From Synergistaceae bacterium (lineage in GTDB: Bacteria > Synergistota > Synergistia > Synergistales > Aminobacteriaceae): 61,668 nt of DNA. The notes beneath the pieces were generated by a model. It searched no databases. It had not been told where the DNA came from and saw only the letters and a program-made list of their open reading frames with translations. Shown one piece after another: positions 41,457 to 61,377 of the stretch. The translations under genes and the position numbers were made by a program. Position 1 is the first letter of the stretch, and every line of letters starts with the position of its first letter. Where the stretch lies: the NCBI GenBank assembly GCA_018436595.1, contig JAHDLC010000042.1, forward strand, positions 1 through 61,668. The letters run 5' to 3'.

Positions 41457-41769
41457 GAAAATGTCCTCCTTGGGAATGTCAGGCTGTACCCCTTCTTTTC
41501 GCTGATATGATACATCACCGCGGAACGGGCCACAACACCCGGCCTTTTCGCCGCGAAATGACGGGTGCGAAGCCTCCTCCGGGAGGGGAACCAGCCAGGA
41601 CCGATTCCGTTCCTCCGGCACGAGACCGGAGAAAATAGCAGCGGACCGGTAAATGTATATATTGCGAAAGATAGGGAAGTGCCGTATGATTCAAAAAAAT
41701 CAACCCCCTTTCTCAGCAAAGAAGAATCACGGTCTGTACCCTATCCGATTATCCAGGAGAGTGAACGAA
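41457..41769. other. Intergenic region, 313 bases, between divergent aminotransferase and glucanase genes
   Basis: It holds the ribosome sites of both genes. The part near 41640-41710 is richer in A/T; a TATATT at 41658-41663 may be the -10 box of the glucanase gene, but I see no matching -35. No RNA gene, repeat or reading frame with a ribosome site is apparent. Confidence 0.4.
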
Positions 41770-44700
41770 ATGCCGAAGAGAACGATGCGTTTTACACCAC
41801 TGGCTGTTCCGGCGGCGATTCTTCTGATTCTGTTGTTCGGAGAGGTCCTGTATGGGGCTCCCGCATGGGTGTCTCCTCCGGGCGGCGGCGACGGCAGCTA
41901 TGCCGTCACGGTGCCCGCGGAGGGGAAGCATTCCGACGCGGATCCCGGAGGAGACACCGGGATCGTTCGGGCGGTACCTCCCGCCGTGGGGCCGAACACC
42001 GATGCCCCCGGTTCGCGGAAGGTTCCCACCGCCGACTGGTGGACCCCCCTGGCGTGGCTCGATCCCGCCGACCTGCCCGACCCTGCGGCCCTTCCCTCCA
42101 TGAGAGGTCTTTCGTGGCAGGTCTTCAGCGAACCCCTGGTTTTCCAGCCCCAGAAGGGCGGACTGGCGGTTTCTCTCAACATTCCCGACAGCCGGAGAGC
42201 GGCCGTCAAAGGAGGCATCCTCACGGCCGGGGAAGGCTTCATGCTCGAGGTTGTGGGTGACGACGCTCACGGAGGAAAGGGAATTTCACCCTATTTCAAC
42301 GCCTTCTTCGACCAGGACATGTACCTCGGCTCCACGGCGGCAGGATGGAACGAAGCCGCGTACACCGGCGTGAAGGTCACAGGGTGGAGCGACTGGTTCG
42401 TCAACTTTTCCCTCACCTCCGCGGCTCCCGCGGAGCGGCTGGACGTGACCGCCGGGGCGGGCTCTCCCTTCCTCCTGGTGAAGAACGGGTCAGGGCGGCC
42501 CCAGGTGACCTTCCGGACATGGAACGTGGGGAAGGTCATTCCCCTCCATGGAATGAGCTTTTCCCTCAACGCCGGGCAGGCGAAAGACCAGAACATATCC
42601 TCCAGTGCGTTTGCAGTGGTCAACAAAGTGCCCTACGGAAAACCCCAGGCCCCCGCGGATGCCAAGGAATACGCCACCTACACCGTCTATGCCGTCTTCG
42701 GTCCCTCCGGGTCAACCTGGCAGCTGAAGGATACCCAGTACACCTCCGAAATTCGGGGGCCCTTCGACTCCTGGCAGGCCTCTCATGGCTACTCCCCGGG
42801 AAACCCTGTGGAACCATCGGCGCCCAACGGTTTCTTCTACACCGCCAACGGGGCGGGGACCAGCGGGGTGTCAGAGCCCGCATGGCCCGCGTCGGCGGGA
42901 GGAACCGTGACGGACGGAACCGTCACCTGGACGGCCAACGCCAAGGAGCTGCGGAACGTCCTGAACACTGCGGAATGTTCGGCGGGAACCTATTATGCCG
43001 TGGCGGTCTTGCCCTATCCTTGGGGCAAGGGAATCTACGACGAGCCGGACGAGCAGAAGGTGAAGGACCTGCTTGCCCATTTCGCGGGGCATGCCTTCGC
43101 CGAAGTCACCGACACCCGGGTAATTCCGGGGTACGCCCCCCAGGCGGACGGTCACGATATGAGCGTGACCTATGCCTGCACCACCGTTTCTGTGGGCACG
43201 GAGTCACCTGCGGCAGGTGGTCCCCTTCGGGCCATGTACCCCCACCAGTACCTGGGCCAGTCCCAGGTGGGCATCCTCAACCAGTCGATGAATCAGGTCT
43301 CCTCCGCTTCATGGCGGACGGGGTGGTACTGGCCGTCTTTGAAGGGCCCTCTGCTGCTGGCCTCCGGGAATTCCTTCGTGAACGTCCTCGAAGTTCCTCC
43401 GTGCCTTCCCGCTCCCATAGACGCCCCTGACCGGCAGAAGGCCGACCGCATGGCTGCGTACCTCCGCCAGGCGCTGGATTCGCGGAATCCGCGGTTTCTC
43501 TCCCAGGGAAGCTATTTCGGCGCCCAGCAGATGTACCGGCTGGCAATGCTCCTCCCGGCAGCGAAAATGATACGGGACACGGCCTCCAGGCCGGCGGAAG
43601 TGGACCAGGCTGCCAGGGAGATGTACACCGCCGTGTCGGAAGCCATGGCCGGCTGGATGAAAGCCACGAAGGACGGCACGACCCTCAAGAACGCGGCGCA
43701 GCACATCTTCTACTACGATTCCCGGTGGGGCGCCCTTCTCCCCACCCCAGAGGACGGCTTTGCGGCGGACAGCCTGCTGAACGACCATCATTTCCATTAC
43801 GGGTACTTCATTAAAACAGCGGCCGAAATCGCCCGGTGGGAAAAGACCCATCCGGACGACCCCGCCAACAGGGGGTGGGCATCCTCCTACGCCCCCATGA
43901 TACGGCTGCTCATCAAGAACATCGCCAACACGAGCCGCGAAGGCCGCGGAGAGGACCCCGACTTCCCCTTCCTCCGCCATTTCAGCCCCTATGCGGGGCA
44001 CTCCTGGGCGAGCGGCTCGTCGAGGGGCAACCAGGGAGGGCAGCAGGAGTCCACACCGGAGGCCATCCAGGCCTGGGCCGCCATTCTTCTCTGGGCGCAG
44101 CTCAACTATCCCGAGAACGGGGAGAACGCCGATCTCGAGCGGTGGGCTGCCTACATGTTCGCCTCCGAGGCGAGAGCGGCGGAACTGTACTGGTTCGGCC
44201 TCACCGACGACGGAACCTTCAGGCCTCACCTGAGTTTCCGGCAGTATTCGGTGAAATCGGACGCCGTTCCTAAGCCCTATGTGCCCTCCATGGTCTCCCA
44301 GGTCAACCAGAACGAAATGACTTACCAGACGGACTTCGGGAATCCCCCGCTGCTGAAGCTCGGAATCCAGGTGCTGCCGTTCACTGGGTCATCCTATTAC
44401 CTTGGTTCCACGCCCGGAAACGCGGACGCCATCGTTTCAGGCTACCTGGACAACGACCTGCCGAAGCTGGCCGACGGAGGCACGTCACCCAGCAACAGGG
44501 ACAAGCTGCTCATGCTCCAGGCCATGACGGCGAGGTACACCGCCGACCCCCGGGCTCTCATCACCCCGGCCGGAGGAGGAGCCTTGCCCCTTGACTCGTG
44601 GAAAATGCAGTGGGAGATCCCCACGCCCACCTTCAGCAACCTGATCCTCCAGGACACCTCCCGGGGCGCTGTATACTGGTGGATCGACACGCTCCTTGCC

Positions 44701-44970
44701 CACGGCGTGCCCCATCACGGGGAAAACGACGCGAATCACACCTCCGCGGCCAGCTTCATGGATGGAAGGGGCGGCAGGGTGTATACGGCCTACAACCCGG
44801 GAGAGTCGCCCCTGCTGGTGACCTTCGCCGACGGAAATACCCTGGAGGTGCCCCCCCTGGCCTACGCTCATGAAACATCGGACGGGGCGGGGGGAGGGTG
44901 CACTGCCGGGACAGTAACGTCCTGGATGCCTCTGTTCCTGCTGCCCCTGCTGCTCCTGCTCCGCAGGTAG
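41770..44970 (+). CDS. Glycoside hydrolase family 81 endo-1,3-beta-glucanase with Synerg-CTERM-type sorting tail
   Basis: 1,066 residues from the ATG at 41770 behind AGGAGAG. A signal peptide (1-29) is followed by a low-complexity lead and the GH81 N-terminal beta-sandwich. The catalytic alpha/alpha barrel covers roughly 560-1030, with the acid candidate D672 in LLNDHHFHYGYF and the base candidates E760 and E764 in QQESTPEAIQAW; GHSWASG precedes them as in the family. Residues about 331-394 form an inserted module (SYSPGNPV-like, ending TVTDGTVTWTA) resembling small wall- or sugar-binding units. The end has GAGGGC, a hydrophobic helix and RR, the same tail as the protease at 38225. It should cut beta-1,3-glucan at the cell surface. 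Confidence 0.88.
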   Translation: MPKRTMRFTPLAVPAAILLILLFGEVLYGAPAWVSPPGGGDGSYAVTVPAEGKHSDADPGGDTGIVRAVPPAVGPNTDAPGSRKVPTADWWTPLAWLDPADLPDPAALPSMRGLSWQVFSEPLVFQPQKGGLAVSLNIPDSRRAAVKGGILTAGEGFMLEVVGDDAHGGKGISPYFNAFFDQDMYLGSTAAGWNEAAYTGVKVTGWSDWFVNFSLTSAAPAERLDVTAGAGSPFLLVKNGSGRPQVTFRTWNVGKVIPLHGMSFSLNAGQAKDQNISSSAFAVVNKVPYGKPQAPADAKEYATYTVYAVFGPSGSTWQLKDTQYTSEIRGPFDSWQASHGYSPGNPVEPSAPNGFFYTANGAGTSGVSEPAWPASAGGTVTDGTVTWTANAKELRNVLNTAECSAGTYYAVAVLPYPWGKGIYDEPDEQKVKDLLAHFAGHAFAEVTDTRVIPGYAPQADGHDMSVTYACTTVSVGTESPAAGGPLRAMYPHQYLGQSQVGILNQSMNQVSSASWRTGWYWPSLKGPLLLASGNSFVNVLEVPPCLPAPIDAPDRQKADRMAAYLRQALDSRNPRFLSQGSYFGAQQMYRLAMLLPAAKMIRDTASRPAEVDQAAREMYTAVSEAMAGWMKATKDGTTLKNAAQHIFYYDSRWGALLPTPEDGFAADSLLNDHHFHYGYFIKTAAEIARWEKTHPDDPANRGWASSYAPMIRLLIKNIANTSREGRGEDPDFPFLRHFSPYAGHSWASGSSRGNQGGQQESTPEAIQAWAAILLWAQLNYPENGENADLERWAAYMFASEARAAELYWFGLTDDGTFRPHLSFRQYSVKSDAVPKPYVPSMVSQVNQNEMTYQTDFGNPPLLKLGIQVLPFTGSSYYLGSTPGNADAIVSGYLDNDLPKLADGGTSPSNRDKLLMLQAMTARYTADPRALITPAGGGALPLDSWKMQWEIPTPTFSNLILQDTSRGAVYWWIDTLLAHGVPHHGENDANHTSAASFMDGRGGRVYTAYNPGESPLLVTFADGNTLEVPPLAYAHETSDGAGGGCTAGTVTSWMPLFLLPLLLLLRR

Positions 44971-46692: not shown

Positions 46693-47979
46693 TTAATACA
46701 GGCCGAGCAGCGAGGGAACCAGAAGGCTGAACCAGGGGACGAGAGCCACGAGAAGGAGCGTCGCCAGCTGGCAGAGCACGAAGGGCCAGATCTCTTTGAT
46801 GATGTTTTCCATGGAGATCTGCCCGATGGACGAGACAACAAAGAGCACCGCCCCCACGGGCGGTGTGTTGAGCCCGATATTGAGCGCCAGCACTACCGTT
46901 ATGCCGAAATGGAGCGGGTGGATCCCCATTTGGGCGGCGATGGGTGCCAGGATGGGAGTGAGAATGACGATGGACGCTGTCAGGTCCATGAAGCATCCCA
47001 CGACGAGCAGAAGGACGCAGACGAGAAGGAGAAAAACATACTTGTTCGAGGTGACGCCGAGTATCCCCGCGGCAATTGTCTGGGGAACCTGGGCCACTGT
47101 CAGGACCCAGCTCAGGATTCCGCCCACCGAGACGAGGAGCAGGGCCACTCCCGATATGGAGATGGTCTTTTTGAGGGCCTGCCAGATCATGGCCGGGGTC
47201 AGCGTCCGGAAAATGAACAGCCCGACGAAGAGGGAATAGCCGACAGCCACCCCGGCGGCTTCCGTAGGGGTAAAGATGCCGGAGAGAATGCCCCCGAGGA
47301 TGATGAGGGGCATGCCCAGGGCGAAGAGGCCGTCCTTCATGGCCCTGAGGACTTCCGCCAGCGACGCTTTCTGCTGCTGCATCTGGTATCCCCGCCTGGT
47401 TGAGATGAAATGGTTGAGAATCATCATGAGAAGTCCCAGGAAGAGCCCGGGAAGAAAACCGGTGGCGAAAAGTCCGGCGATGGACGTGTTGGCCACTGAT
47501 CCGTAGACGATCATGGCCATGCTCGGGGGGATGGTGGGGCCTATGATCGAAGCAGCTCCGGTGAGGGCAGTGGCGTAGGGCTTCGAGTATCCCGATGTGT
47601 TCATTGCCGGTATGAGCATGGTTCCGAGAGCCGCGGCGTCGGCGACGGCCGCTCCCGAAATTCCGGCCATGAAGATGTTTGCCACGATGTTGACGTGCCC
47701 GAGGCCGCCCTTCCTGTGTCCCACGAGGGTGTTCGTGAACCGGACGATACGCTCGGTAATGCCCGACACGTTCATGAGTTCCCCCGAGAGCAGGAACAGC
47801 GGGATGGCCATGAGGACAAAGGAATTCATTCCCGAGAATATCTGCTGCGGAACGAGCATGAGGAGGCTTGTCCCCATGGTCATCAGAAGGCCGAGAAGAC
47901 CGGTTATTCCCAGGGCGAAGGCGATGGGCATGCCCGTAAGGATCATTGCGAAAAAGGCGAGGGCTATCAGTGCCAGCAT
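46693..47979 (-). CDS. TRAP transporter large permease subunit (DctM type)
   Basis: 428 residues with 11-12 hydrophobic segments, the normal DctM length. Family marks are IPLFLLSGELMNVSGITERIV, then VNIVANIFMAGISGAAVADAAALGTMLIPAM, GPTIPPSMAMIVYGSVAN and TPTEAAGVAVGYSLFVG. It forms the sodium-driven channel that takes substrate from the periplasmic receptor. The ATG lies seven bases after the dctQ stop. Together with 47987-48475 and 48583-49614 it makes a complete TRAP system, followed by the D-aminoacylase. Confidence 0.95.
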   Translation of the reverse strand: MLALIALAFFAMILTGMPIAFALGITGLLGLLMTMGTSLLMLVPQQIFSGMNSFVLMAIPLFLLSGELMNVSGITERIVRFTNTLVGHRKGGLGHVNIVANIFMAGISGAAVADAAALGTMLIPAMNTSGYSKPYATALTGAASIIGPTIPPSMAMIVYGSVANTSIAGLFATGFLPGLFLGLLMMILNHFISTRRGYQMQQQKASLAEVLRAMKDGLFALGMPLIILGGILSGIFTPTEAAGVAVGYSLFVGLFIFRTLTPAMIWQALKKTISISGVALLLVSVGGILSWVLTVAQVPQTIAAGILGVTSNKYVFLLLVCVLLLVVGCFMDLTASIVILTPILAPIAAQMGIHPLHFGITVVLALNIGLNTPPVGAVLFVVSSIGQISMENIIKEIWPFVLCQLATLLLVALVPWFSLLVPSLLGLY

Positions 47980-47986
47980 GGCCTGC

Positions 47987-48475
47987 TTACCTCCTCAGCT
48001 CCGAGATTATTTTCATCAGCGCCACGAGGAGCATGATCCCGCCGCTGAAGGGTACGGAGAGGAGCGGTATCCACATGGGCATGGGGATAATTTCCGCCGT
48101 TGCGCCCGAATCGAAGGCGAGATCCGTTCCGTAGACCAGCATGATTCCCGCAAAAAGCGCGATCAGAGAATAGTTCAGAACCCGGCAGGCCTTTTGGAGC
48201 CATGCCGGGAAGCGGTTGAGCACAGCGGTGAAAGACGCGTGTTCGTCTTTATGAAGGGCTATGGCAGCTCCTGCAAGACCGACGAAGACAACGAGAAACC
48301 GTCCCGCTTCCTCCGACCAGCTGAGGGCGTTCCCGAGGACGTACCGGTAGAAAACGCTCAGGAGGATTATGACCGTTATGGCCGCCAGCAGAACGGCGCA
48401 CAGGGAGATCAGAATTCGTTCGATTTTTTCGACAGTTCCGGAGAAGGCTGTCCCCTGGTGTTCTTCTTTTTCCAT
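47987..48475 (-). CDS. TRAP transporter small permease subunit (DctQ type)
   Basis: 162 residues with four helices; the start is the ATG at 48475 behind AAGGAG, and the longer frame to 48535 lies in the intercistronic hairpin. The DctQ pattern is visible: VFYRYVLGNALSWSEEAGRFLVVFVGLAGAAIALHKDEHASF. It binds DctM in the inner membrane. It is separated from the receptor gene by 107 bases that hold a stable hairpin. Confidence 0.92.
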   Translation of the reverse strand: MEKEEHQGTAFSGTVEKIERILISLCAVLLAAITVIILLSVFYRYVLGNALSWSEEAGRFLVVFVGLAGAAIALHKDEHASFTAVLNRFPAWLQKACRVLNYSLIALFAGIMLVYGTDLAFDSGATAEIIPMPMWIPLLSVPFSGGIMLLVALMKIISELRR

Positions 48476-48499
48476 TGATCCGGCTCCTTGTCTGCGAAA

Positions 48500-48532
48500 G
48501 TGCGCGCTCCTCCGCGGGAGAGGAGCACGCAC
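48500..48532 (-). terminator. Intercistronic hairpin between dctP and dctQ
   Basis: The 13-base arms (48500-48512 and 48520-48532) are fully paired in the minus-strand RNA, with one G-U pair, around a 7-base loop. Only a short T run follows, so it may be a weak terminator or a block to exonuclease decay. Confidence 0.55.
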
Positions 48533-48582
48533 CATTGTCCGATGATTATAGCGGCGGCTTCAACTGCCGATCCGCTCCGGCG

Positions 48583-49614
48583 CTATTTGCTCCCCTGCAG
48601 CCGCTTCTCGATTTCCTCCACGGTGGCGAGGAAACGGGCGACAATCTCCGGCTCAATTTTCGACTTGCTCCACTCGAGGACGGCGGTGCGTCCGATGTTC
48701 TGGAACTCAATGTAATTTTCGTCAGAAATGGGTGTTATGGTCATTTTCTTCTCTTCGAGGAACTTGATGCCCGTCGCCTGGATGATCTGGCTCTGCCCCT
48801 TGGCGGCGATATTGCCGTAGTGGAAGGCGTCGTCAAAGACTTTGCGGTCCGCAGGCGGAAGGGATTCGTACCACTTCTCGTTTACGGTTACCCACTGGCT
48901 TCCAAGTATTGTGCGGCTGATGGTTATATAGTTCTGTACCTCGAAAAACTTGGAGCTGATGGTTATGTTGATCGGGTTGACCTGCCCTTCCACGACACCG
49001 GTCTGAAGACCGGTGTACAGTTCCGCGAACGCCATGGGCACGGCATTTGCCCCGAGAGCCCTGAACATTTCCACCTGGCTGTCGTCCATGGCCCTGAATT
49101 TGATGCCCTTCATGTCGGCCACCGCAGCTATGGGGCGGACGTTGTTCGTGAAACAGGAAAGCCCCCCGATGTCAAAAACCATGACCGAGCGGATGCCGGT
49201 TTTTTTGTACATATCATCAAAAAGCCACTGGACGAAATCGCTTTCGAGCACTTCGTGGACAACCTTGTCTCCGGAGTACATGAACGGAGTGTTGAGAAGA
49301 ATGGCGGGTTTGTAGAGGTTGCTGAGCCCCCCGATAGACCCCACGTTGATCTGGATGCCGTTCGCCTTGACGAGTTCGAGGCGCTCCCGCTCCTTGCCGA
49401 TGACGTTCGAGGGAAAGATTTCAACCGCATACCTGCCGCCGGTCCGGGTCTCCACGTAATTTTTGAAGACCACGGCCATGACGTAGCAGGGATCGCTCAT
49501 GTCGGGGTTGATACTCAGGGCCATCTTGACGGTCTGTGCGGCGTCTGCGGGAACCGACAGGAATATCGACATGAGGAGAAGAACGGGAATCAGTACTTTT
49601 CGAGTGACCTTCAT
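48583..49614 (-). CDS. TRAP transporter substrate-binding protein (DctP type)
   Basis: 343 residues with a signal peptide (1-25, ending PADAA). The mature part follows DctP: INVGSIGGLSNLYKPAILLNTPFMY, then KGIKFRAMDDSQVEMFRALGANAVPMAFAELYTGLQTGVVEGQVNPI, which contains the Arg (in KFRAM) that usually salt-bridges the substrate carboxylate. It should bind a carboxylate in the periplasm. It heads the operon dctP-dctQ-dctM-D-aminoacylase. The operon suggests an acylated amino acid or its relative as ligand, which is an inference. Confidence 0.94.
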   Translation of the reverse strand: MKVTRKVLIPVLLLMSIFLSVPADAAQTVKMALSINPDMSDPCYVMAVVFKNYVETRTGGRYAVEIFPSNVIGKERERLELVKANGIQINVGSIGGLSNLYKPAILLNTPFMYSGDKVVHEVLESDFVQWLFDDMYKKTGIRSVMVFDIGGLSCFTNNVRPIAAVADMKGIKFRAMDDSQVEMFRALGANAVPMAFAELYTGLQTGVVEGQVNPINITISSKFFEVQNYITISRTILGSQWVTVNEKWYESLPPADRKVFDDAFHYGNIAAKGQSQIIQATGIKFLEEKKMTITPISDENYIEFQNIGRTAVLEWSKSKIEPEIVARFLATVEEIEKRLQGSK

Positions 49615-51159: not shown

Positions 51160-52260
51160 TCACAGGGCGGCGATCCGCCGGAGGAACTCGTCCAGCTGTC
51201 CCGGAGACGGCACCCGGAGCCGGGCCGATCGTTTGTCAAGGTCGAAGAACCCCGATCCCGCTTCGCAGGAGATGCCTGCCGCCGCAAGCCCGGCCGCGAG
51301 GTCGCCCGACTCCCGGGTCAGGAGACAGATGGGAACCCTGGGGTCCGTCTCAGCAACGGAAAGGTCTTTTCTCCCCCCCAGAACGGCGGTCATCTGCTCT
51401 TTGGCCTTTCTGACGTACTTCCTCGTTTCTTCAAGAAAGGAACCGTCCTGCAGAATGGCCTCCGCCAGAAGGGCATCCACAGTCCCGACGGCGAAGGGCG
51501 GCTGGAGTGTCCTGAATGCCGCCGCAAGCTCGGGACTCCGGGAGACGGCGAAGCCCACCCGAAGCCCTGCGCCGCCCTGCCCCTTAGAGAAGGACCGGCA
51601 GGTGATGACGTTGGGCAGATCGATGGATGCCGCGGATTCCTCGTCGGGCAGAAAGTCTCCGTAGGCCTCGTCGATGATGACCCAGGTTCCCTTTTCCATG
51701 GCTCCCCGGGCAAGCCGTTCCGCCGAATCAAGGGAAATTGCCTGCCCCGTGGGGTTGTTTGGGCGGTCAAGGTAAATCAGCGGGTGTCCCTGCCCGCTCA
51801 GCCGCTCCAGCAGGGCAGGGACGACGGAGAAGTCCGGGCCTCTCAGCCGGAGAGGTTCGTAGGATGCGCCGGTGTAGAGCGCCTGGAGAACGGCGTCGGT
51901 GAACTGCGGTGAAATTCCGGTAAAGGAAATGCCGGGGCCCAGAAGGAGCCGCGAGAGAGTGACGAGGACGCCCATGGATCCTCCGCCGACAAGGACCTGT
52001 TCCGGGAGGATTTGCCAGGAGGCGTATTTCGAGACGATGGCCTCTTTTAGTTTTTCCGGCTCCGGCTGGGGATAGCCGCAGACGGAAAGGTCCTCCAGCC
52101 CTTCAAGAAACCGGCGGACGGAGGGAGGAGTCCCCAGGGGGTTTGTTCCCAGGGCGCAGTCGATCACCTCGATCCCTTCGGGATACACGGGCGGGCGGGC
52201 GGATGCGTACCCCTCCTGACCCGTTGACAGATGCTGATGCTGCAGTTTTCCTTTCCACAT
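51160..52260 (-). CDS. Histidinol-phosphate aminotransferase-like PLP enzyme
   Basis: 366 residues from the ATG at 52260, which has only a weak GGGGGA site. Fold-type I marks are ALGTNPLGTPPSV, YLDRPNNPTGQAIS, IDEAYGDF and the Schiff-base Lys in SFSKGQGGAGLRVGF. Length and motifs match the HisC/CobC group. No histidine or cobalamin genes are near. It is the last gene of the peptide ABC operon, 14 bases after the second ATPase, so a role in degrading an imported amino acid is more likely than biosynthesis. The true substrate is open. Confidence 0.85.
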   Translation of the reverse strand: MWKGKLQHQHLSTGQEGYASARPPVYPEGIEVIDCALGTNPLGTPPSVRRFLEGLEDLSVCGYPQPEPEKLKEAIVSKYASWQILPEQVLVGGGSMGVLVTLSRLLLGPGISFTGISPQFTDAVLQALYTGASYEPLRLRGPDFSVVPALLERLSGQGHPLIYLDRPNNPTGQAISLDSAERLARGAMEKGTWVIIDEAYGDFLPDEESAASIDLPNVITCRSFSKGQGGAGLRVGFAVSRSPELAAAFRTLQPPFAVGTVDALLAEAILQDGSFLEETRKYVRKAKEQMTAVLGGRKDLSVAETDPRVPICLLTRESGDLAAGLAAAGISCEAGSGFFDLDKRSARLRVPSPGQLDEFLRRIAAL

Positions 52261-52274: not shown

Positions 52275-53093
52275 TCAGTTTGTTTCTGGCTTGCAGCTCT
52301 CCTGCCCCGGCAGTTTCCCCAGCCGCGGCAGCGCGGCCACAAGAGCCCGGGTGTAGGGGTGCTTCGGGGCGGAGAGGATGTCCCGGCAGAAACCTTCCTC
52401 CACCACCGTACCTTTGTGCAGAACAATGCCCCTTAGCGCGGCCTTCCGGGCGAGGAAGAGGTCGTGGGTGACAAAGATCATGGACATGCCTGATCGCTGG
52501 CGCTTTGCAAGGATTTCGATGATCTCCCCCCGGGTGGAGGCGTCCTGCATGCTGGTGGGCTCGTCGCACAGCAGAAGCTCGGGGTCGAGGATCAGCGCCC
52601 TGGCTATGGCGACCCGCTGGCGCTGGCCCCCCGAGAGGGAGAGGCGCACCCGGGAGGAGAGGATGGCCTCGTCCCGGAGTCCGAGTTCTCCAAGAAGGTT
52701 CCGGGCCCGTTCTTCTCCTTCTTTCTCGTCATGTTTTCCCCTGACGAGGAGCCAGGGTTCCATTGCCGCCTCGAGGACCGTGAGGGTGGGGGGGAGGGAG
52801 CCGTAGGGATCCTGGGAGACCATGGCGCACCGCCTCCGGAGGGCTGTCATCTCCGGCCCGTCCGCCGAGGCGGTGTCCTGTCCGAAGAGGGTGATGGATC
52901 CCTCCGACGGGAGAACGTGGCCGAGGATGCACCGCATGAGGGTGGTCTTGCCGCTGCCCGATTCGCCGATGACGGAAAGGCTTTCTCCCCTTTCCAGCGT
53001 GAGGGTGAGGCCGGAGAGGGCCCTTACGGGTTCCCGCCGCCTCCTGCCGGGAAAGACCGCCGAGAGGTTCCTGATGTCCAGCAGGGTTGTCAT
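52275..53093 (-). CDS. Peptide ABC transporter ATP-binding protein (DppF/OppF type)
   Basis: 272 residues. Walker A VIGESGSGKTT, signature LSLSGGQRQRVAIARAL, Walker B LLLCDEPTSMQDASTRGEI and switch His FVTHDLFLAR are intact; the C-terminal HPYTRALVAALP is typical of oligopeptide ATPases. The usual D-x-S-V-Q of Walker B is SMQDAS here. The cysteine cluster often found at the end of OppF is absent. The ATG overlaps the stop of the first ATPase by four bases. The reading frame continues open to 53891 but that part lies inside the upstream gene. Confidence 0.93.
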   Translation of the reverse strand: MTTLLDIRNLSAVFPGRRRREPVRALSGLTLTLERGESLSVIGESGSGKTTLMRCILGHVLPSEGSITLFGQDTASADGPEMTALRRRCAMVSQDPYGSLPPTLTVLEAAMEPWLLVRGKHDEKEGEERARNLLGELGLRDEAILSSRVRLSLSGGQRQRVAIARALILDPELLLCDEPTSMQDASTRGEIIEILAKRQRSGMSMIFVTHDLFLARKAALRGIVLHKGTVVEEGFCRDILSAPKHPYTRALVAALPRLGKLPGQESCKPETN

Positions 53094-53884
53094 GATCCTT
53101 CCTCCAGGTCCAGCAGGGCCTTCACGAGGGCCCTGGTGTGGGGATTCCGGGGCCTGGCGGTGATCTCGGCGGGATCTCCCTCCTCCACCAGCTCTCCGTC
53201 CTTCAGTATGTGCAGCCTGTCCGCCACGGAAGCCGCAAGAGGCAGGTCGTGGGAGATGAGGAGAAGGCCGAGCCCCTTTTTCTCCACGAGATTCTTCAGG
53301 GTGGCGATGATCCCCTGCTGGGTGATCACGTCCAGGGCCGTGGTGGGTTCGTCGCAGAGAAGGTAGTCCGGAGAGCAGGCCAGGGCGAGAGCAATGGCCG
53401 CCCGCTGTTTCTGCCCTCCCGAAAGTTCGTGGGGGTACCGTCGGGCCAGTTCCCCGTCCAGCCCGGCCAGGTCGAAGAGTGAGGGTATCCGTTCCAGGGC
53501 TTCCTTCCGGGAGAGCCCCAGGTGGACGGAGAGCACTTCCTCCACGTGGCGGCCCACGGTGAGCACAGGGGTGAAGGAGTTCATGGCCCCCTGGGGGACG
53601 ATGGCGATCCTCCGCCACCGGATGCGGTTCAGGTCGTTCTCCGGCAGGGCGAGGAGGTTTTTTCCGTCCAGAAGGATTTCCCCCGAGACGGCTGTGCCCG
53701 GGGGAAGCAGCCCCGGGATGGCCATGAGCACCGTGCTCTTGCCGCTCCCCGATTCGCCGGCGAGGGCGGAGAACTGTCCTTTCCGGATGGTCATGGAGAC
53801 GTTTTTCACAGCGGCGGCCTGGCTTCCCCTTCCTTCGGAGGTCATCCGGCCGTAGGTGACGGAGAGATTCCGTATGTCGATCAC
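53090..53884 (-). CDS. Peptide ABC transporter ATP-binding protein (DppD/OppD type)
   Basis: 264 residues from a GTG at 53884, nine bases after GGAGG and overlapping the permease stop by four bases. Walker A LAGESGSGKST, the Q-loop VPQGAMNSFTPVLTVG, signature LSGGQKQRAAIALAL, Walker B YLLCDEPTTALDVITQQG and ISHDLPLAA are complete. The Q-loop block with QGAMNS is typical of the dipeptide/oligopeptide group. It forms a heterodimeric motor with the next ATPase. Confidence 0.94.
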   Translation of the reverse strand: MIDIRNLSVTYGRMTSEGRGSQAAAVKNVSMTIRKGQFSALAGESGSGKSTVLMAIPGLLPPGTAVSGEILLDGKNLLALPENDLNRIRWRRIAIVPQGAMNSFTPVLTVGRHVEEVLSVHLGLSRKEALERIPSLFDLAGLDGELARRYPHELSGGQKQRAAIALALACSPDYLLCDEPTTALDVITQQGIIATLKNLVEKKGLGLLLISHDLPLAASVADRLHILKDGELVEEGDPAEITARPRNPHTRALVKALLDLEEGS

Positions 53885-55062
53885 AGGACATTTCCTCCTC
53901 TCAGGCGGGGGTCGACCCGCTCTTCAAGGTATTTCCCCAGGTCCAGAAAGACGAGGCAGAGGAGGGCGATGCCGAGGCCGGGGGGCAGGAGCATCCACCA
54001 TGCCCCGGCGGTGAAGGCGCCGAAAGACTGGGCTTCGTGGAGCATCCGTCCCCAGGAGATCACCCTGGGGTCCGAGAGGCCGAGGAAGGAGAGCCCCGCC
54101 TCGGAGAGAATGGCACCGGGAACTCCCAGGGTCATGGTGGCCAGCAGCACGGGGAGGGTCTCCGGCAGGAGGTGGCGCCGGAGGATATAGCTCGCGGGGG
54201 CTCCCAGTCCCCGCAGGTCTTCGATGTACTGGGCGTCCCGGAGGGTCAGGGTCAGGGCCCGGACGGTCCGGGCGGTACCCATCCATGAGAAGACGGACAG
54301 GATGAGGATGAGCTGCCAGAGCCCCTTTCCCCAGAGGGCGGCGAGGGCCATCAGGATGGGAAGCAGGGGGATGGAGAGCAGCAGGTCCACCGTCCTCATG
54401 ATCACGGCGTCGGTCCACCCTCCCCGGTAGCCCGCGGCGAGGCCGAGGGAAGTTCCGAGGAAGGTCGCCAGGAGGGTGGCGAAGATGCCTACCAGGAGGG
54501 AGACCCGGATGCCGGCCACGAAGAGGGCGGCGATGTCCCGGCCCCGCTGGTCCGTCCCGAGGAGGCCCCACCGTCCCCCTTCCAGCCGGATTTTCACCGA
54601 GCCCTCCCATTCCCCTTCGCCGGTCAGCCCGATCCTGTAGGTTCCCCTTTCGGGAAAGAGGGCGGAGGAGGCGTCCCCGAAGGGAGGCAGGCCCAGGGAG
54701 CGCTTGAAGGCCATGTCCCGACCGTCGAGTTCCACGCCCCCGTTGAGGGGCGTGAGACGGAAGGTCTTTCCGCCGGGGAGGGTCCATTCCACGAACCGGG
54801 AGGGGGCGGGAAGGGCCGTTTCGACCCGGAGGGAGAACCGGGAAGGAGCGCTGAAGGTCCAGTCCAGCTCCACAGCAGGGTGTCCGCCCGAAAGTTCCAG
54901 GTCCATGGTGGGCGGAAGGGACCGGTCCAGCCACAGGGGTTTCGAGAAGGGTGCCGCCACCTCCGCTTCGGGGAGGGCGTCAAAGAGACGGGTCCCGAAC
55001 AGGGCCAGGGCCGCGAGGCCGAGAAGGCACCAGAAGCTCCACCGTTTCAGCAGGCCCTTCAT
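53881..55062 (-). CDS. Peptide ABC transporter permease (DppC/OppC type) with large periplasmic insert
   Basis: 393 residues, about 90 more than a usual DppC. TM1 lies at 9-27. Then, instead of the usual short link, about 140 residues (30-168) of beta-rich sequence follow (VELDWTFSAPSRFSLRVETALP, GTYRIGLTGEGEWEGSVKIRL), before the family motif GLLGTDQRGRDIAALFVAGIRVSLLVG. The rest has five helices and the EAA loop DLRGLGAPASYILRRHLLPE. The insert should stand in the periplasm facing the binding protein. The start overlaps the dppB-like stop by four bases. Confidence 0.92.
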   Translation of the reverse strand: MKGLLKRWSFWCLLGLAALALFGTRLFDALPEAEVAAPFSKPLWLDRSLPPTMDLELSGGHPAVELDWTFSAPSRFSLRVETALPAPSRFVEWTLPGGKTFRLTPLNGGVELDGRDMAFKRSLGLPPFGDASSALFPERGTYRIGLTGEGEWEGSVKIRLEGGRWGLLGTDQRGRDIAALFVAGIRVSLLVGIFATLLATFLGTSLGLAAGYRGGWTDAVIMRTVDLLLSIPLLPILMALAALWGKGLWQLILILSVFSWMGTARTVRALTLTLRDAQYIEDLRGLGAPASYILRRHLLPETLPVLLATMTLGVPGAILSEAGLSFLGLSDPRVISWGRMLHEAQSFGAFTAGAWWMLLPPGLGIALLCLVFLDLGKYLEERVDPRLRGGNVL

Positions 55063-56036
55063 CGTCCGCCGCCCCGTTCCATGCGCACCCGGGGGTCGGT
55101 CAGGCCGTAGAGCAGGTCCGACAGGAGGTTGCAGCTCACGGTGAGCAGGGCCAGCAGAAAGAAGGACGCCCCCGCGGCGGGGTAGTCATGGCCGGTCACC
55201 GCCTCCAGCAGGAACCGCCCCACGCCGTGGAGGGAAAACACCGTCTCGGTGATCACGGCCCCGGAGACGATCCCGGGAAGGGACAGCAGAAAGATGGTGA
55301 GGAGGGGCGGCAGCAGGGTCCGGAAGGCGTGTCCCAGGATGATGTTCCGTTCCGGAAGCCCCCTGGCCCGGGCGAGAAGGATGAAATCCTCGCCGAGAAT
55401 CTTCACCATGAGGTTCCGCACGTAGAGGGCCCATCCTCCGAAACCCAGGAGGACGAGGGAAAAGACGGGCAGGGCCATGTGCCACAGGTAGTCGAGCAGC
55501 AGGGGGAGCCCCTCCGCCGGAGGAGGGACCGACAGAGTTCCCCTCAGGGGAAAGAGGGGGAGTGCGGCCGCGAAGGCCATGAGGAGCACAAGCTGGACGA
55601 AGAAGGAGGGAAAGGAGAAGGACAGGGCGCCGCTCCAGAGGACGCACTTTTCCAGCAGGCTTCCCCGCTTCCGTGCAGCCTTCATGCCGAGCCAGGTCCC
55701 GAGAAGGGACGACAGCACAAGACTTGTACCCAGCAGCACCACCGTGTTTGGCAGCCGGGATTTCAGCTCCTCCATCACGGGGCGCCCGGTGAGGAAGGAG
55801 ATGCCGAAGTCGAAGGTCAGGGTGGACCGGACGTACCGGAGAAACTGCACGGGAAGAGACTGGTCGAGGCCGTAGACTTCGCTCAGCCGTGCCTTTGCCT
55901 CGGGAGAGAAGTTCGGGTCGATGATGGAGGCCACGGGATCTCCCGGCATCATGCGGAACAGGACGAAGTTGAGCACCAGCACCAGCCCGAGGACCAGCAG
56001 GGCGCTCCCCGTCCGCCGTGCCCAGTAGCCGCTCAC
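55059..56036 (-). CDS. Peptide ABC transporter permease (DppB/OppB type)
   Basis: 325 residues, six helices. MMPGDPV after TM1 is the DppB family mark (PGDP), followed by YGLDQSLPVQFLRYV and DFGISFLTGRPV. The EAA loop is ARARGLPERNIILGHAFRTLLPPLL. The GTG start at 56036 sits too close (1-2 bases) to GGAGGG, so initiation may depend on coupling to the binding-protein gene, whose stop lies seven bases away. It forms the channel with the DppC-type partner. Confidence 0.93.
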   Translation of the reverse strand: MSGYWARRTGSALLVLGLVLVLNFVLFRMMPGDPVASIIDPNFSPEAKARLSEVYGLDQSLPVQFLRYVRSTLTFDFGISFLTGRPVMEELKSRLPNTVVLLGTSLVLSSLLGTWLGMKAARKRGSLLEKCVLWSGALSFSFPSFFVQLVLLMAFAAALPLFPLRGTLSVPPPAEGLPLLLDYLWHMALPVFSLVLLGFGGWALYVRNLMVKILGEDFILLARARGLPERNIILGHAFRTLLPPLLTIFLLSLPGIVSGAVITETVFSLHGVGRFLLEAVTGHDYPAAGASFFLLALLTVSCNLLSDLLYGLTDPRVRMERGGGR

Positions 56037-56043: not shown

Positions 56044-57720
56044 TCACCTCTTCCTGCCGAGCCAGAACCGTTGGTTCCCGCTCAGCCGGACATATTCCCC
56101 CGGGCGGTACTCCCGGAAGACGAAGGGGCCCGTCCCCACGAGTCCTGTGAGGGTAGAGTCCGAAGGGTGCTTCTCCGACGCGGGAAGCCAGCTCCGCCAG
56201 TCGGCGACTTTTTCGATGACGTGCCGGGGGAGGATGGAGATGCCGCCCACCCGGTGGAGGTGCCAGAAGCTCACGTTTTTCATGATCACTTTGAGGGTGC
56301 GGTCATCAGGGGTTTCCACGGTTTCGATGTTGTCCACGTTATCGAAGTACCGGGGAACGGCGTTCTTCCGGAGCGTTTCGTAGGTGAAGGCGGCGTCCGC
56401 GGCCGTCAGGGGGGTGCCGTCGTGCCACTCCACGCCCTCCCTGAGGCGGAAGGTAAGCACCGTGCGGGGGCCCGAAGGGCCTTCCTCCGTGGCGATGGTC
56501 CAGCTTTCGGCGAGCCAGGGAATGGTCTCCAGGGTGTAGGGGTCCACGGCGATGAGGGAGTCGTAGATCAGGCCGAGGACCTGCCAGTCGTAGGCGGAGC
56601 TGGACGTGAAGGGGTTGAGCGCCCTCGGCTCGTCGGCCTGGACGAGATAGAGGGGCTTCATGGGGCCTGACGCGGGCTCCATGGCCAGCAGGCTCCAGGT
56701 GTTGTCCGCCGTGACCCTGTCGGTGACCAGGGTTCCCTTCCACTGCTTCGACACGGCGGAGATGGTGTACCGGCTGTAGACGGGGACCACCGGGACGAGA
56801 TCCGAGAGAAGCTTCTGGGCCTCCGAGGCGGCCGTGCGGGCCGCCGTCTCGTCCGGGGCGAAGCGGAGCCTGTCGAGAACTTCGTCGAGGGCGGGATCGG
56901 AGATGCCGGGCATGTTGTAGCCGCCCCGTATGTCCATCTTCGAGGAGTAGAAGGCGTAGAGGGAATCGGGATCCCGGGTCATCTGCCATGCCAGGACGTA
57001 CATCTGGAAATCCCGCTCGTCCAGCCTGGAGATCATGGTGGAGAAGTCCATGGGCTCCGCTTCGACCGGAATGCCGATGGAGGAGAGGGCCCCGGCCATG
57101 CGCACCGCGATCTCGGCCGTTGTGGGTGCTGTGGACGCCGTGGGGCAGAGAAGTTTCTGGGGGGGGACTTTTTTTCCGTCGGGCGAGACGAGAACACCGT
57201 CGGAGCCCCATGTCCATCCCCCGTCGGCAAGTCGCTTCCTTGCAGCTTCGGGGTCGTGGGGGTAAGCCGTCACGTCCGGTTCGAAGTAGGGAGACACCGG
57301 AGGGAGGAAGGTGGAAAGAGGTTCGGCGTACCCGGCGAAGAGATCCCGGACCATCCTCTCCCGGGGAAGGGCCTGCCAGGCGCTGCGGCGCAGGTCGAGG
57401 CTGTTCCACGGGAAGGTCCGCACGTTGAAGCCGAGAAAGAACCCGTGGAAGCCCGATGCGATGGAGAGGTCCACGGCGGGGCTTTTTGAAAGGGCGTCCA
57501 CGTCCACGGGACGGTGGAGATCCCCCAGGATGTCCGCCTTTCCCCGGTTCAGCGCCAGGAGCTGGGCGTCGGGATCCCGGATGATCACCAGGTAGAGGTC
57601 CCTGACCTTCGGTCCTGCAAAGGCTTCCGGGTCGAAGGCGCCGGCGGCGGCCCGGTGTGAGGCGGATAGCAGGATGAAGGCTGCTGTCGTCAGGAACAGG
57701 GCGAAAAGGGCTTTTCTCAT
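56044..57720 (-). CDS. Peptide/oligopeptide-binding protein (SBP_bac_5), apparently circularly permuted
   Basis: 558 residues from the ATG at 57720; an ATG four codons earlier touches its own AAGG. A signal peptide (MRKALFALFLTTAAFILL) is normal. The order of blocks is not. The mature protein begins with KVRDLYLVIIRDPDAQLLAL and FNVRTFPWNSLDLRRSAW, which belong to the middle and end of the DppA family. Only after TWSLLAMEP does the usual family N terminus appear (ADEPRALNPFTSSSAYD, PWLAESW, FRLREGVEWHDGTPLTAADAAF). The protein ends GTGPFVFREYRPGEYVRLSGN and QRFWLGRKR, the block that normally precedes the piece now at the N terminus. It is the first gene of a complete peptide ABC operon. Confidence 0.88.
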   Translation of the reverse strand: MRKALFALFLTTAAFILLSASHRAAAGAFDPEAFAGPKVRDLYLVIIRDPDAQLLALNRGKADILGDLHRPVDVDALSKSPAVDLSIASGFHGFFLGFNVRTFPWNSLDLRRSAWQALPRERMVRDLFAGYAEPLSTFLPPVSPYFEPDVTAYPHDPEAARKRLADGGWTWGSDGVLVSPDGKKVPPQKLLCPTASTAPTTAEIAVRMAGALSSIGIPVEAEPMDFSTMISRLDERDFQMYVLAWQMTRDPDSLYAFYSSKMDIRGGYNMPGISDPALDEVLDRLRFAPDETAARTAASEAQKLLSDLVPVVPVYSRYTISAVSKQWKGTLVTDRVTADNTWSLLAMEPASGPMKPLYLVQADEPRALNPFTSSSAYDWQVLGLIYDSLIAVDPYTLETIPWLAESWTIATEEGPSGPRTVLTFRLREGVEWHDGTPLTAADAAFTYETLRKNAVPRYFDNVDNIETVETPDDRTLKVIMKNVSFWHLHRVGGISILPRHVIEKVADWRSWLPASEKHPSDSTLTGLVGTGPFVFREYRPGEYVRLSGNQRFWLGRKR

Positions 57721-58304
57721 TTCTCGTCTCATCCTTTCCGGAACGGGGATTCGGATTTGTCCATTATTCTAGCAGATCGCTGAAGAATCCCTTTCCGTGA
57801 AATGCCGTATTTCAGGCTGTCCGGGAGGGCGGAAAGAAGAGCCGGAGCGAATCCCCGGCAGAGCAATGTTCCCGCGGTCCCTCGCGGACACCGGATATAC
57901 CGGTCCGATGACCGGGGAATCGGGAACATCCGCCCGGCTTGACTTCGTAATTTTGAGAGTTTACACTACTGACGAAACAGAGAAAACGGCGAAATAATTC
58001 AGCTTCCTGGCAATCCGAGAAAAGTTTCTTTGGAAGTCGTATCCAGTTATGCACTCTCTTGAATACAATCCGGGAGGTCGGCGGAAAAAAGGAAGAAACG
58101 CCAATTTGTCTGATGTCCTCTGATGAAGGGCTTCCGGCACGGCGGTTCGTTATCCCCGGAGCTGTTTTCCGTTTCTGGACCAGGCGGTTTGTTCTTTAGC
58201 GGGGCAGTCTTTTCCCGCTGAAAAGGCATCTATCTTTTCAGGCGTCCGGCCGACGGTCTCCGGAGCGTTTCCGTCAGGTCCGTCCGCTCAGGCAGGGAGG
58301 TGAT
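57721..58304. other. Divergent intergenic region, 584 bases, between peptide ABC and second TRAP operons
   Basis: It holds the plus-strand promoter at 57939-57967 and, near 57766-57771 on the minus strand, a TAGAAT that may be the -10 of the peptide operon. The predicted TRAP leader is about 390 bases, with an 8-bp hairpin CTGAAAAG/CTTTTCAG at 58218-58241 and a TCTGATG direct repeat near 58099. No riboswitch class is recognised. Reading frames here have no ribosome site. Confidence 0.4.
57939..57967 (+). promoter_or_regulatory. Sigma-70-like promoter upstream of the second TRAP operon
   Basis: TTGACT at 57939-57944 and TACACT at 57962-57967, 17 bases apart. It is the best match in the region and implies a long leader. 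Confidence 0.5.
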
Positions 58305-58361
58305 ATGTTCTCCGAAAAGGACGATGGGGCCGGATCAGAAAATCTGAAGGAGGTGCTTTGA
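58305..58361 (+). CDS. Candidate 18-residue leader peptide coupled to dctP
   Basis: An ATG at 58305 follows GGAGGTGAT, a nine-base match to the 16S rRNA tail. The frame encodes MFSEKDDGAGSENLKEVL and stops at a TGA that overlaps the ATG of the TRAP receptor gene by one base (TGATG). The dctP ribosome site lies inside this frame, so translating ribosomes would pass over it. The peptide has no membrane segment and is not rich in one amino acid. It may be only a coupling device. Confidence 0.4.
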   Translation: MFSEKDDGAGSENLKEVL

Positions 58362-59422
58362 TGAAACATTGGAAACTGGCTTCGATTGGAGTTGCAGCGG
58401 CGGTACTTTTCGGCGTTCTGTTTATCGGCGGCATTGAGCAGGCCTCGGCGGCGGATGTTTTCAACTGGAAGTTCCAGAGCCACCACACCCCGGGGTCCCT
58501 CGCGGTTGAATCCGTCATCAAGCCTTTTATTGAAAGAGTGGAGAAGATGTCCGGCGGCAGGCTGAAAATCAGCCTTCACTATGCCGGTGAACTGGTGGAC
58601 TACGCTGAAGTGGACAAAGCCCTCCAGGCGAATATGATCCAGATCTCCAACACGAGTTCCCTGTTCTTCAGGGGAGCCATCCCCATGGGATGGGTCACCG
58701 CGCCCAACATGCCTCCCTTTGTCACCCGGTCCAACGACGAGTTCAACGAACTCTTCCATCACAGGGGGCTCGACGATCTGGTTGCCGAGGCTCTGAACGA
58801 GCGGGGCATCAAGTACCTCGGATGCCACAGCGTGGGCAACACGTATTTCTGGAGCAAGAAACCGATTAAAACCCTTGAAGACCTGAAGGGATTCAAAGTA
58901 CGTTTCTTCGGCTCCATGTCCGATTTCGTGGAGCACTTCGGTGCCTCCCCCGTCATGCTTCCCCACCCGGAAACCTACATGGCCATCGCCATGGGCACCC
59001 TCGACGGCAGCGGAACAGCCTGGTGGCTGTACCGCGACCTGAAGCTCTATGAAGTCTGCAAGTACTTCGTCGGGCCGGCCTTCCAGGTTCCCCAGGGAAT
59101 GGAACTCTGGGCTTCCAAGAAGGCGTGGGACGAGCTTCCTGCGGACCTCCAGGCCATCGTCGAGACGGCGGCCCACGCGTTCAACACGGATTACATGGAC
59201 GCAGTGACCATGCAGGAACGGGATATGTTCAACAAGTCCTTCAAGGAGTGGGGAACCACCTACACCGAGTTCAGCCCCGAGGAAGTGGCCAGGATAACCA
59301 ACGAATTCTCCATCCCCTATCTCGACAAGGTGGCAGAAGAGCAGGGAAAGAAGGACCCGAGGGTCATCAAGGCCGTCGAGATCATTAAGCAGTTCATGAA
59401 GGATTACGGCTACATTAAATAA
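58361..59422 (+). CDS. TRAP transporter substrate-binding protein (DctP type)
   Basis: 353 residues from the ATG at 58361, eight bases after AAGGAGG. A signal peptide (1-30, ending ASAA) precedes the mature NWKFQSHHTPGSLAVESVIKP. Family marks are KGFKVRFFGSMSDFVEHFGASPVMLPHPETYMAIAMGTLDGSGT with the ligand-binding Arg in KVRFF, and a long C-terminal helix. The pattern HPETYMAIAMGTLDG is nearest to the receptors for oxo acids or lactate, but that is not decisive. A strong hairpin terminator follows the gene inside the operon. Confidence 0.94.
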   Translation: MKHWKLASIGVAAAVLFGVLFIGGIEQASAADVFNWKFQSHHTPGSLAVESVIKPFIERVEKMSGGRLKISLHYAGELVDYAEVDKALQANMIQISNTSSLFFRGAIPMGWVTAPNMPPFVTRSNDEFNELFHHRGLDDLVAEALNERGIKYLGCHSVGNTYFWSKKPIKTLEDLKGFKVRFFGSMSDFVEHFGASPVMLPHPETYMAIAMGTLDGSGTAWWLYRDLKLYEVCKYFVGPAFQVPQGMELWASKKAWDELPADLQAIVETAAHAFNTDYMDAVTMQERDMFNKSFKEWGTTYTEFSPEEVARITNEFSIPYLDKVAEEQGKKDPRVIKAVEIIKQFMKDYGYIK

Positions 59423-59434
59423 GGATCGGCCAAG

Positions 59435-59468
59435 AAAAAACCCCCTCTCTTCGGGGAGGGGGTTTTTC
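59435..59468 (+). terminator. Intra-operon terminator after dctP
   Basis: A C/G-rich stem (CCCCCTCTC with GGGAGGGGG, one G-U) closed by a UUCG tetraloop at 59450-59453, with an A run before it and TTTTT after it. It lies between dctP and dctQ, so only part of transcription should pass into the permease genes. Confidence 0.85.
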
Positions 59469-59508
59469 TTAAATTCCAACAGCCCGAGTTCTCGATGAGG
59501 TGATGCGG

Positions 59509-60054
59509 TTGCGGTTTCTAACTGGTTTTATTCAATTTGTCGACGCCATGGTCGACCGGATCGGAAAGATAGCAAGCTTCCTTATTTATCCGACCATGCT
59601 CGTCCTGGTGTACGAAGTTGTCATGAGATACTATTTCACGCGCCCCACCATCTGGGCCCACGAGACGTCATGCATGCTCTACGGGGCGCACTTTGTGATA
59701 GGAGGGGCCTATGCCCTGCAGAAGGGCGCCTTCGTCAGCGTCGAAGCTTTCTACATGCGGTTTTCACGGCGTACCCAGGCGATCCTCGACCTGTGCACCT
59801 GGACCATGTTCTATATCTTTGTGGGCGTCTTGCTCTGGAAGAGCCTCCCGTGGGCATGGGAAAGCTTTAAGGTGAGCGAATTTTCCGACAGCACGTGGGG
59901 GCCCTATGTCTGGCCCGTCAAGATGACCATTCCCTTTGCCTCTTTTCTCATGCTGCTCCAGGGGATGACCAAGACCATAAAAGACGCGTACCTGGCCGTG
60001 ACCGGGCGGGAGCTTGTCGTCGGTGCGGATGCTGAAGCCGCTGCCGGGAACTGA
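59509..60054 (+). CDS. TRAP transporter small permease subunit (DctQ type)
   Basis: About 181 residues, four helices. DctQ marks are VYEVVMRYYFTRPTIWAHETSCMLYGAHFVIGGAYALQKGAFVSVE. The start is uncertain: GAGGTGAT (59497-59504) leaves a TTG at 59509 at the best distance (8 bases), while GTG at 59500 and ATG at 59503 overlap the ribosome site. It partners with the DctM subunit ten bases downstream. Confidence 0.9.
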   Translation: MRFLTGFIQFVDAMVDRIGKIASFLIYPTMLVLVYEVVMRYYFTRPTIWAHETSCMLYGAHFVIGGAYALQKGAFVSVEAFYMRFSRRTQAILDLCTWTMFYIFVGVLLWKSLPWAWESFKVSEFSDSTWGPYVWPVKMTIPFASFLMLLQGMTKTIKDAYLAVTGRELVVGADAEAAAGN

Positions 60055-60063
60055 GGTGAACCC

Positions 60064-61377
60064 ATGAATATAGAAATGATTTCCGTTCTCCTTTTCGGCA
60101 GCATGCTCCTTCTGCTCGCCTCGGGCCTTCCCGTCGCCTTCGTTCTCGGAGGGCTGGCCGTGGTGTTCACCGGCGTGTTCTGGGGCCCCGAATCGCTCTT
60201 CATCATTTTGGCCAGGACCTTTTCCATGATGTCCACCACGACCCTTGTGGCGGCGCCCCTTTTTGTCCTCATGGCGGTGGTGCTTGAGCGTTCCGGCGTG
60301 GCTGAAGACCTCTACGAGATGATGTACCGGTGGTCCGGCGGCATCAAGGGAGGACTGGCGGTCGGCACCGTTCTTGCCTGCACGCTGATAGCCGCCATGT
60401 CCGGCATTGCCTCCACCGGAGTCGTCATGATGGGCGTCATGGCACTCCCCGCGATGCTGAAGAGAGGGTACGACAAGCGGATCGCCACGGGATGCATCCT
60501 GGCCGGCGGCGTCCTTGGTCCCCTGATTCCTCCCAGCATTGCCCTGGTGCTCTACGGCACCATGGCCCAGGTATCCATCGGCGCTCTCTTCGCCGGAGGC
60601 ATGGCCGCCGGAATGCTCTGCTCCCTGCTGATCATCGGCTACATCCTGATCAGGTGCTATCTCAACCCGAAACTGGGGCCGGCCATTCCCGTGGAAGAAC
60701 GGGCCGACTGGGACGCGAAGATTTCCTCCCTCAAGGGAGTTATCCTCCCCCTTCTTCTTATCACCGCAGTTCTGGGCTCCATCTACAGCGGCATAGCCAC
60801 TCCGACTGAAGCGGCCGCCGTCGGAGCCCTTGGCGCCTTCGTCTGCAGCGCCATCCACAGGCGTCTGACCTGGGACCTGATCAAGAGCGTGGCCTACACC
60901 ACCATCCAGGTCCAGGGGTTCATGATGTGGATCCTGTTCGCCGCCCAGGGGTTTGCGGCCGTTTACATGGGCCTTGGGGCCTCCAGGATGGTCGTCAACC
61001 TGGTCCAGACCTACCAGGTCGGATGGTGGACCATGCTGATCGGCATACAGGTAGTCTGGTTCCTGCTCGGGTGCGTGATCGACGCCTGGAGCATCCTCAT
61101 GATAACCCTTCCCATCATTCTTCCCCTCCTGCCGCTGTATGGATTTGATCCCCTGTGGCTGGGAGTGCTGTACGCCGTCAACACCCAGACGGGGTACCTC
61201 ACGCCGCCCTTCGGCACCATGCTGTTCATGATGAAGGGCATCGCTCCCAAGGAAGTCACCATGACCGACATTTACCATTCCATCGTGCCCTTCGTGGTGA
61301 CCCAGCTGTTCTGCCTGGCATTGTGCATCGCCTTCCCGCAGCTGGTCACCTGGCTTCCGAACCTGCTCTTCAAATAG
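60064..61377 (+). CDS. TRAP transporter large permease subunit (DctM type)
   Basis: 437 residues, 12 hydrophobic segments. Family marks are LLASGLPVAFVLGGLAVVF, then FVLMAVVLERSGVAEDLYEMM, LIAAMSGIASTGVVMMGVMALPAML, GPLIPPSIALVLYGTMAQ and TPTEAAAVGALGAF. The C-terminal block LTPPFGTMLFMMKGIAP is well conserved. AGGTGA precedes the ATG. It completes a dctP-dctQ-dctM operon with no enzyme gene attached, so the substrate is open. Confidence 0.95.
   Translation: MNIEMISVLLFGSMLLLLASGLPVAFVLGGLAVVFTGVFWGPESLFIILARTFSMMSTTTLVAAPLFVLMAVVLERSGVAEDLYEMMYRWSGGIKGGLAVGTVLACTLIAAMSGIASTGVVMMGVMALPAMLKRGYDKRIATGCILAGGVLGPLIPPSIALVLYGTMAQVSIGALFAGGMAAGMLCSLLIIGYILIRCYLNPKLGPAIPVEERADWDAKISSLKGVILPLLLITAVLGSIYSGIATPTEAAAVGALGAFVCSAIHRRLTWDLIKSVAYTTIQVQGFMMWILFAAQGFAAVYMGLGASRMVVNLVQTYQVGWWTMLIGIQVVWFLLGCVIDAWSILMITLPIILPLLPLYGFDPLWLGVLYAVNTQTGYLTPPFGTMLFMMKGIAPKEVTMTDIYHSIVPFVVTQLFCLALCIAFPQLVTWLPNLLFK

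Follow-up and report, generated by a model that had tools for sequence, protein, structure and literature searches.

Results

A permuted binding-protein gene at the head of an importer operon

The window, i.e., the whole stretch of 61,668 nt that was analysed, carries on its minus strand a gene for a substrate-binding protein (SBP) of the SBP_bac_5 family (Table 1). Directly beside it lie genes for BPD_transp_1 permeases (permB and permC) and oligopeptide-type ATPases, and the five-gene operon is complete, in agreement with the first-pass annotation, which had placed the gene at the head of an intact operon. The open frame runs from an ATG at 57732 down to 56044 and encodes 562 amino acids at most; the start at 57720 (Met5), with an AAGGA about 11 nt upstream, looks slightly better than the ATG at 57732, which is directly abutted by a purine run. 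By eye, the leader is hydrophobic with an AAA-G cleavage-like site, as expected of an export signal, so that the signal peptide has indeed been kept, as had been proposed. The aminotransferase gene downstream of the operon is present in another locus (L038) too, its conservation is limited to close relatives, and it probably lies outside the transporter. Two TRAP-type sets (DctP/Q/M-like, by eye) at 46693-49614 and 58358-61377 flank the operon. Elsewhere in the window, the proteins encoded at 38225-40111 (subtilase-like) and 41653-44970 (large, secreted-looking) have Gly-rich C-terminal ends with Cys, a hydrophobic stretch and RK/RR, which resemble a C-terminal sorting signal.

Table 1. Features of the permuted importer locus (positions in the window; residue numbers refer to the encoded protein).
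Feature	Position	Strand	Remarks
Permuted SBP_bac_5 substrate-binding protein, order M-C-N	56044..57720	minus	Alternative start 57732
Sec-type signal peptide, residues 1-30, no lipobox cysteine	57643..57732	minus	By eye and regex scan of leaders
Block A, residues 41-345: M (41-182) and C (203-333), normal middle and C-terminal part	56698..57612	minus	
C-N fusion linker, residues 334-371, old C-terminus into old mature N-terminus	56620..56733	minus	
Block B (segment N), residues 358-562, normal N-terminal part	56047..56661	minus	
permB, DppB-type permease, start 7 nt past the SBP stop	55059..56036	minus	Pfam BPD_transp_1 and BPD_transp_1_N
permC, DppC-type permease with extra extracytoplasmic domain	53881..55062	minus	
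permC extra domain, residues 28-165, from TM1 to the GTDQRGRD motif	54568..54981	minus	
ATPase subunit, DppD-type	53090..53884	minus	
ATPase subunit, DppF-type (oligo_HPY C-terminus)	52275..53093	minus	
Class I/II aminotransferase, 14 nt downstream of the operon	51160..52260	minus	

The window protein is a complete circular permutation

The segments are named here by their place in the normal chain, N for the N-terminal, M for the middle and C for the C-terminal part, and the general topology of cluster C SBPs is N-M-C. The blocks of the window protein had been noted to occur in swapped order, and this was confirmed. The Pfam search gave SBP_bac_5 (PF00496) as the only family above cut-off (217.2 bits against a curated cut-off of 32.4), and the match falls into two swapped stretches, residues 41-264 corresponding to profile positions 146-363 and the start of the profile being matched further downstream. 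All three PDB alignments that were printed (8efz, 1xoc and 8z1y) have the blocks swapped in the same way, and normal order was given by no alignment. When the protein was rotated to begin near residue 355, a single Pfam stretch covered profile positions 2-363 of 368 with 233 bits. We then scanned rotations in 5-residue steps with an HMM built from normal-order relatives only (profile length 499). Unrotated, the window protein reached 161.7 bits over positions 201-485, while the best rotations (start residues 336-361) reached 324.4 bits over positions 15-485; for a normal paralog encoded in that genome, the unrotated sequence scored best (556.8 bits). With complementary blocks that become one collinear match once rotated, the gene encodes a complete circular permutation of a cluster C (SBP_bac_5) binding protein, in the order M-C-N instead of the canonical N-M-C. 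The fusion of old C-terminus to old N-terminus bears the motif N-x-W-S-L-L-x-x-E-P-x-x-G. The present ends, QRFWLGRKR and GPKVRDLYLVII, had been described as joining perfectly; they do join, and the word "perfectly" has to give way to a redundancy of a few residues at most.

All three cyclic orders occur in nature

The permuted-order profile was found in 108 of 188 Synergistota genomes from 10 families, normally as one copy per genome, and the genomes include six that consist of one contig. Orthologs from several of these families (46-92% identity) have the same order, and all of the more than 40 orthologs whose order was read one by one are M-C-N. A junction profile (A4) was run on sampled genomes, a match across both junction sides being taken as a permutation. 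Such spanning matches were present in about 41 of 368 genomes of Bacillota (the phylum of a Syntrophomonadaceae MAG) and in 2 of 370 of Chloroflexota (the phylum of a Dehalococcoidia MAG), and none was above threshold in 369 Pseudomonadota genomes; the order itself was read individually for the fetched proteins rather than for every spanning match. Three segment HMMs sorted the fetched proteins into 48 N-M-C, 44 M-C-N and 38 C-N-M, and twelve further spanning loci added 2 M-C-N and 10 C-N-M. All three cyclic orders of the segments therefore exist.

M-C-N is also found in Bacillota, and C-N-M in haloarchaea, Bacillota, Chloroflexota and one Synergistota genome. Haloarchaeal SBPs crossing the junction had surfaced in the first scan; these lipoproteins (L047:4440-6371, L054, L067 and others) are C-N-M and head dpp-type operons, and by the profile they occur in 5 of 247 sampled genomes of that phylum. 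The Synergistota case (genome G037, L103:5617-7293, protein P0002) is a second permuted SBP_bac_5 protein, again C-N-M and leading a dpp-type operon of its own. In Bacillota, the proteins L167, L168, L169, L172, L173-L177 and L181-L184 are C-N-M with weaker spanning matches. Among plasmid-borne relatives, the best 30 of 2635 records match in two pieces, as normal order would, judged by match pattern rather than by individual reading. At two loci (L097:5280-6949 in genome G127 and L043:1-1604), the permuted SBP lies in two frames, either because the gene is broken or through a sequencing error. A contig of a Myxococcota MAG (L044), the end of which encodes a 92% identical piece of the permuted Synergistota protein, is probably mis-binned.

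Origin of the permuted orders

For the SBP tree, which is unrooted, the segments were restored to one order and concatenated. M-C-N forms a single clade (support 100/99) in which the Bacillota and Synergistota halves are sisters. A further branch with support 100/99 separates M-C-N, most C-N-M proteins and the long-branched normal protein L066 from the remaining normal proteins, and a second C-N-M group (L167/L169) is nested among normal-order proteins. One origin for all the permuted proteins was rejected (AU p = 0.0047), and one clade of M-C-N and main C-N-M proteins without L066 was not (AU p = 0.216); since the tested groupings were named after the first tree had been seen, these p-values are indicative. 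The same picture was given by an unrooted tree of the permeases, which are themselves unpermuted: M-C-N operons (100/99), main C-N-M operons (100/100), and normal operons together with the second C-N-M group (100/100). The linker pattern W...EP-G is common to M-C-N and several main C-N-M proteins and is lacking in the second C-N-M group. These data fit, and do not prove, one ancestral C-N fusion that was trimmed differently, plus a later independent event. Since Bacillota share the M-C-N order and M-C-N forms one clade, the order predates the Synergistota phylum. The C-N-M rotation appears to have arisen independently at least once, and the second C-N-M group, represented on the trees by L167 and L169, looks like an independent permutation. 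A likely route to M-C-N would be a tandem duplication and fusion, after which the first N segment and the second M-C would have been lost.

We considered whether the order could be something other than an ancient permutation. The source genome is a draft assembly in 50 contigs, and a normal gene present as a tandem or inverted copy might have been mis-joined during assembly or binning. However, order, breakpoint and operon position are the same in 108 separately assembled genomes, including the one-contig genomes G008, G035, G049, G057, G142 and G143, and the order recurs in Bacillota at about 40% identity. The source genome also lacks a close normal-order sister copy; the paralogs there are distant, with 24-40% identity in local matches, and its other family members are in normal order wherever both blocks are readable. 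Because the same order recurs independently, an artefact is already refuted and its probability is practically nil: the permutation is a lineage trait. Had pieces of two different SBP genes been fused, swapped blocks might also be expected, yet here the blocks complement each other, hardly anything is duplicated or missing, and a single near-complete profile match is obtained on rotation, which makes such a fusion very unlikely. Finally, in an unrooted tree in which a 100/99 branch parts the main permuted groups from normal-order proteins, the permuted orders could have come first in this branch, with the normal order derived from them. Against this, the solved relatives among the PDB matches listed are all in normal order, the second C-N-M group nests among normal proteins and N-M-C is the general topology of cluster C, so that we regard this polarity as highly improbable.

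Breakpoints and predicted fold

The M-C-N break falls at about residue 213 in OppA (1b05) and about residue 245 of Sinorhizobium meliloti YejA (7z8e), and the C-N-M break to about YejA residue 410, inside lobe 2. In E. coli YejA, lobe 1 comprises residues 1-286 and 540-579 and lobe 2 residues 287-539, and the original termini of oligopeptide-binding proteins are close in space (PMC10924461). The M-C-N break would thus lie within lobe 1 and the C-N-M break within lobe 2, and this mapping onto solved relatives bears out the suggestion that the termini have moved to another site on the lobes. The short linker would join the old termini, adjacent to each other in domain I, and the new ones would emerge from a surface loop of that domain, in lobe 1. 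The idea that a single lobe crossing remains after permutation was dropped: with the break in lobe 1, some 55 residues ahead of the first crossing, both interlobe crossings should persist. Ligand capture should hence proceed as usual, between the lobes of a two-lobed Venus-flytrap fold that is presumably kept. AlphaFold2 models had a mean pLDDT of 44.1 for the window protein (6 orthologs) and 43.2 for the haloarchaeal protein (15 rows), both from shallow alignments and both too low for the models to be of use. Permutation for membrane anchoring, as raised for TpMglB-2, was rejected, since all but one of the M-C-N leaders scanned with a simple pattern have no lipobox.

Judged from the family, the ligand is most likely a peptide or a similar small amine. 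The ligand-contact residues R383 and D436 of E. coli DppA (PMC12136057) had no clear counterpart in the window protein in a pairwise alignment. The NCBIfam equivalog cut-offs were not reached (DppA, 60.5 of 1005; NikA, 105 of 393; Opp4A, 128 of 650); the permutation itself lowers these scores. The genes beside the permuted operons gave no conserved clue to the substrate; a gamma-glutamyltranspeptidase and a C69 peptidase are neighbours of two operons, and elsewhere the genes are unrelated.

An enlarged permC accompanies the M-C-N order

The order SBP-permB-permC-ATPase-ATPase was found in all Synergistota permuted loci with flanks. Their permC carries a long extracytoplasmic insert that follows TM1 and precedes the GTDQRGRD motif; in the window, it adds about 110 residues to the length of a normal permC, and comparison of this insert with Pfam and PDB gave no relative above noise. 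By operon, the insert was present with 17 of 17 M-C-N SBPs, 0 of 20 C-N-M and 0 of 10 normal ones, a count that omits one permC listed under L164 as it belongs to a neighbouring operon. Across the Synergistota genomes, insert and permuted SBP occur together in 104, the SBP only in 4, the insert only in 1 and neither in 79. In Bacillota permC, the part preceding the core is larger still, the conserved core beginning at 254-332 (frames as read). The Bacillota M-C-N genes L161 and L179 (G589) are extra copies that have no permease genes nearby. In the genomes G020, G031 and G027, the operon is broken up, with some 4-14 kb of the contig between the permuted SBP and the insert-bearing permC.

In the E. 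coli DppABCDF transporter, the scoop motif of DppB enters the cleft of docked DppA (PMC12136057), and for this reason the extracytoplasmic domain of permC would be well placed to touch the SBP. A permuted receptor had been suggested to dock differently; the SBP, which would hand its ligand to permB/permC, may dock through this domain, and the domain probably contacts it. The rotation could also be real and mechanically neutral, a frozen accident that leaves docking and transport unchanged, with the insert as a separate trait of the operon. C-N-M SBPs pair with an ordinary permC, and hence a rotated SBP can dispense with the insert; moreover, the SBP and permease trees agree, and inheritance alone would keep the traits linked, so that the association may be the mere joint inheritance of one operon. 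On the other hand, the insert is strictly tied to M-C-N across two phyla and the domain has been kept despite sequence divergence, which might be coincidence. We give this neutral scenario close to even odds. The stronger proposal, that among the three orders M-C-N marks a distinct importer class in which the permC domain grips the relocated termini of the SBP and docking is unlike that of Dpp/Opp, is tentative and rather unlikely.

Discussion

The most probable explanation, to which we assign a probability of about 0.87, is an ancient natural permutation that has yielded a working importer receptor with a conserved Venus-flytrap fold and relocated termini. Permuted binding proteins have been built in laboratories as sensors. 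Natural ones are few, and the described cases that we found belong to other SBP classes. Here, a major SBP family has been rotated in nature at two positions, one per lobe, at least two times independently, and the rotated order has been retained through phylum-level divergence. Such a natural experiment can reveal whether the position of the chain start matters to a Venus-flytrap receptor and to its translocator, and the strict pairing of M-C-N with an enlarged permC makes the docking hypothesis directly testable. There is also a consequence for annotation, as a family search alone labels such genes as ordinary binding proteins, so that the permutation is easily missed, and their low scores against curated equivalog models arise for the wrong reason.

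Our search of open-access papers, with subscription journals mostly outside it, brought up no description of permuted cluster C proteins, and a search of the junction profile against the PDB gave no permuted relative, the N block standing at the chain start in 60 of the 60 matches listed. The nearest precedents are permuted proteins of other classes. Circular permutants among glycine betaine-binding proteins were found from structures with CPSARST, at less than 24% identity (PMC2395249). They likewise represent a permutation between homologous binding proteins, but of another class, and unlike in the window protein, the rotation is not visible within one sequence family. Tp0684/MglB-2 of Treponema pallidum ("Type Ic / Cluster Bc") is naturally permuted, lineage-wide, binds its ligand and changes conformation (PMC4990184). 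It resembles the window protein in being a naturally permuted, lineage-wide binding protein of the ABC-importer type, and differs in being a glucose binder of cluster B, with another breakpoint, a fourth hinge crossing and a lipoprotein tether (PMC4990184). The window family belongs to cluster C and its M-C-N members mostly have no lipobox; with SBP_bac_5 as its sole Pfam family above cut-off, the window protein falls outside the MglB-type "Cluster Bc". Compared with DppA, OppA, AppA and NikA (cluster C), it is of the same family, with the same segments and the same type of operon (two permeases and two ATPases). It differs from them in its M-C-N order, with the new termini predicted elsewhere in lobe 1, and the operon differs from their systems in the extra extracytoplasmic domain borne by its permC.
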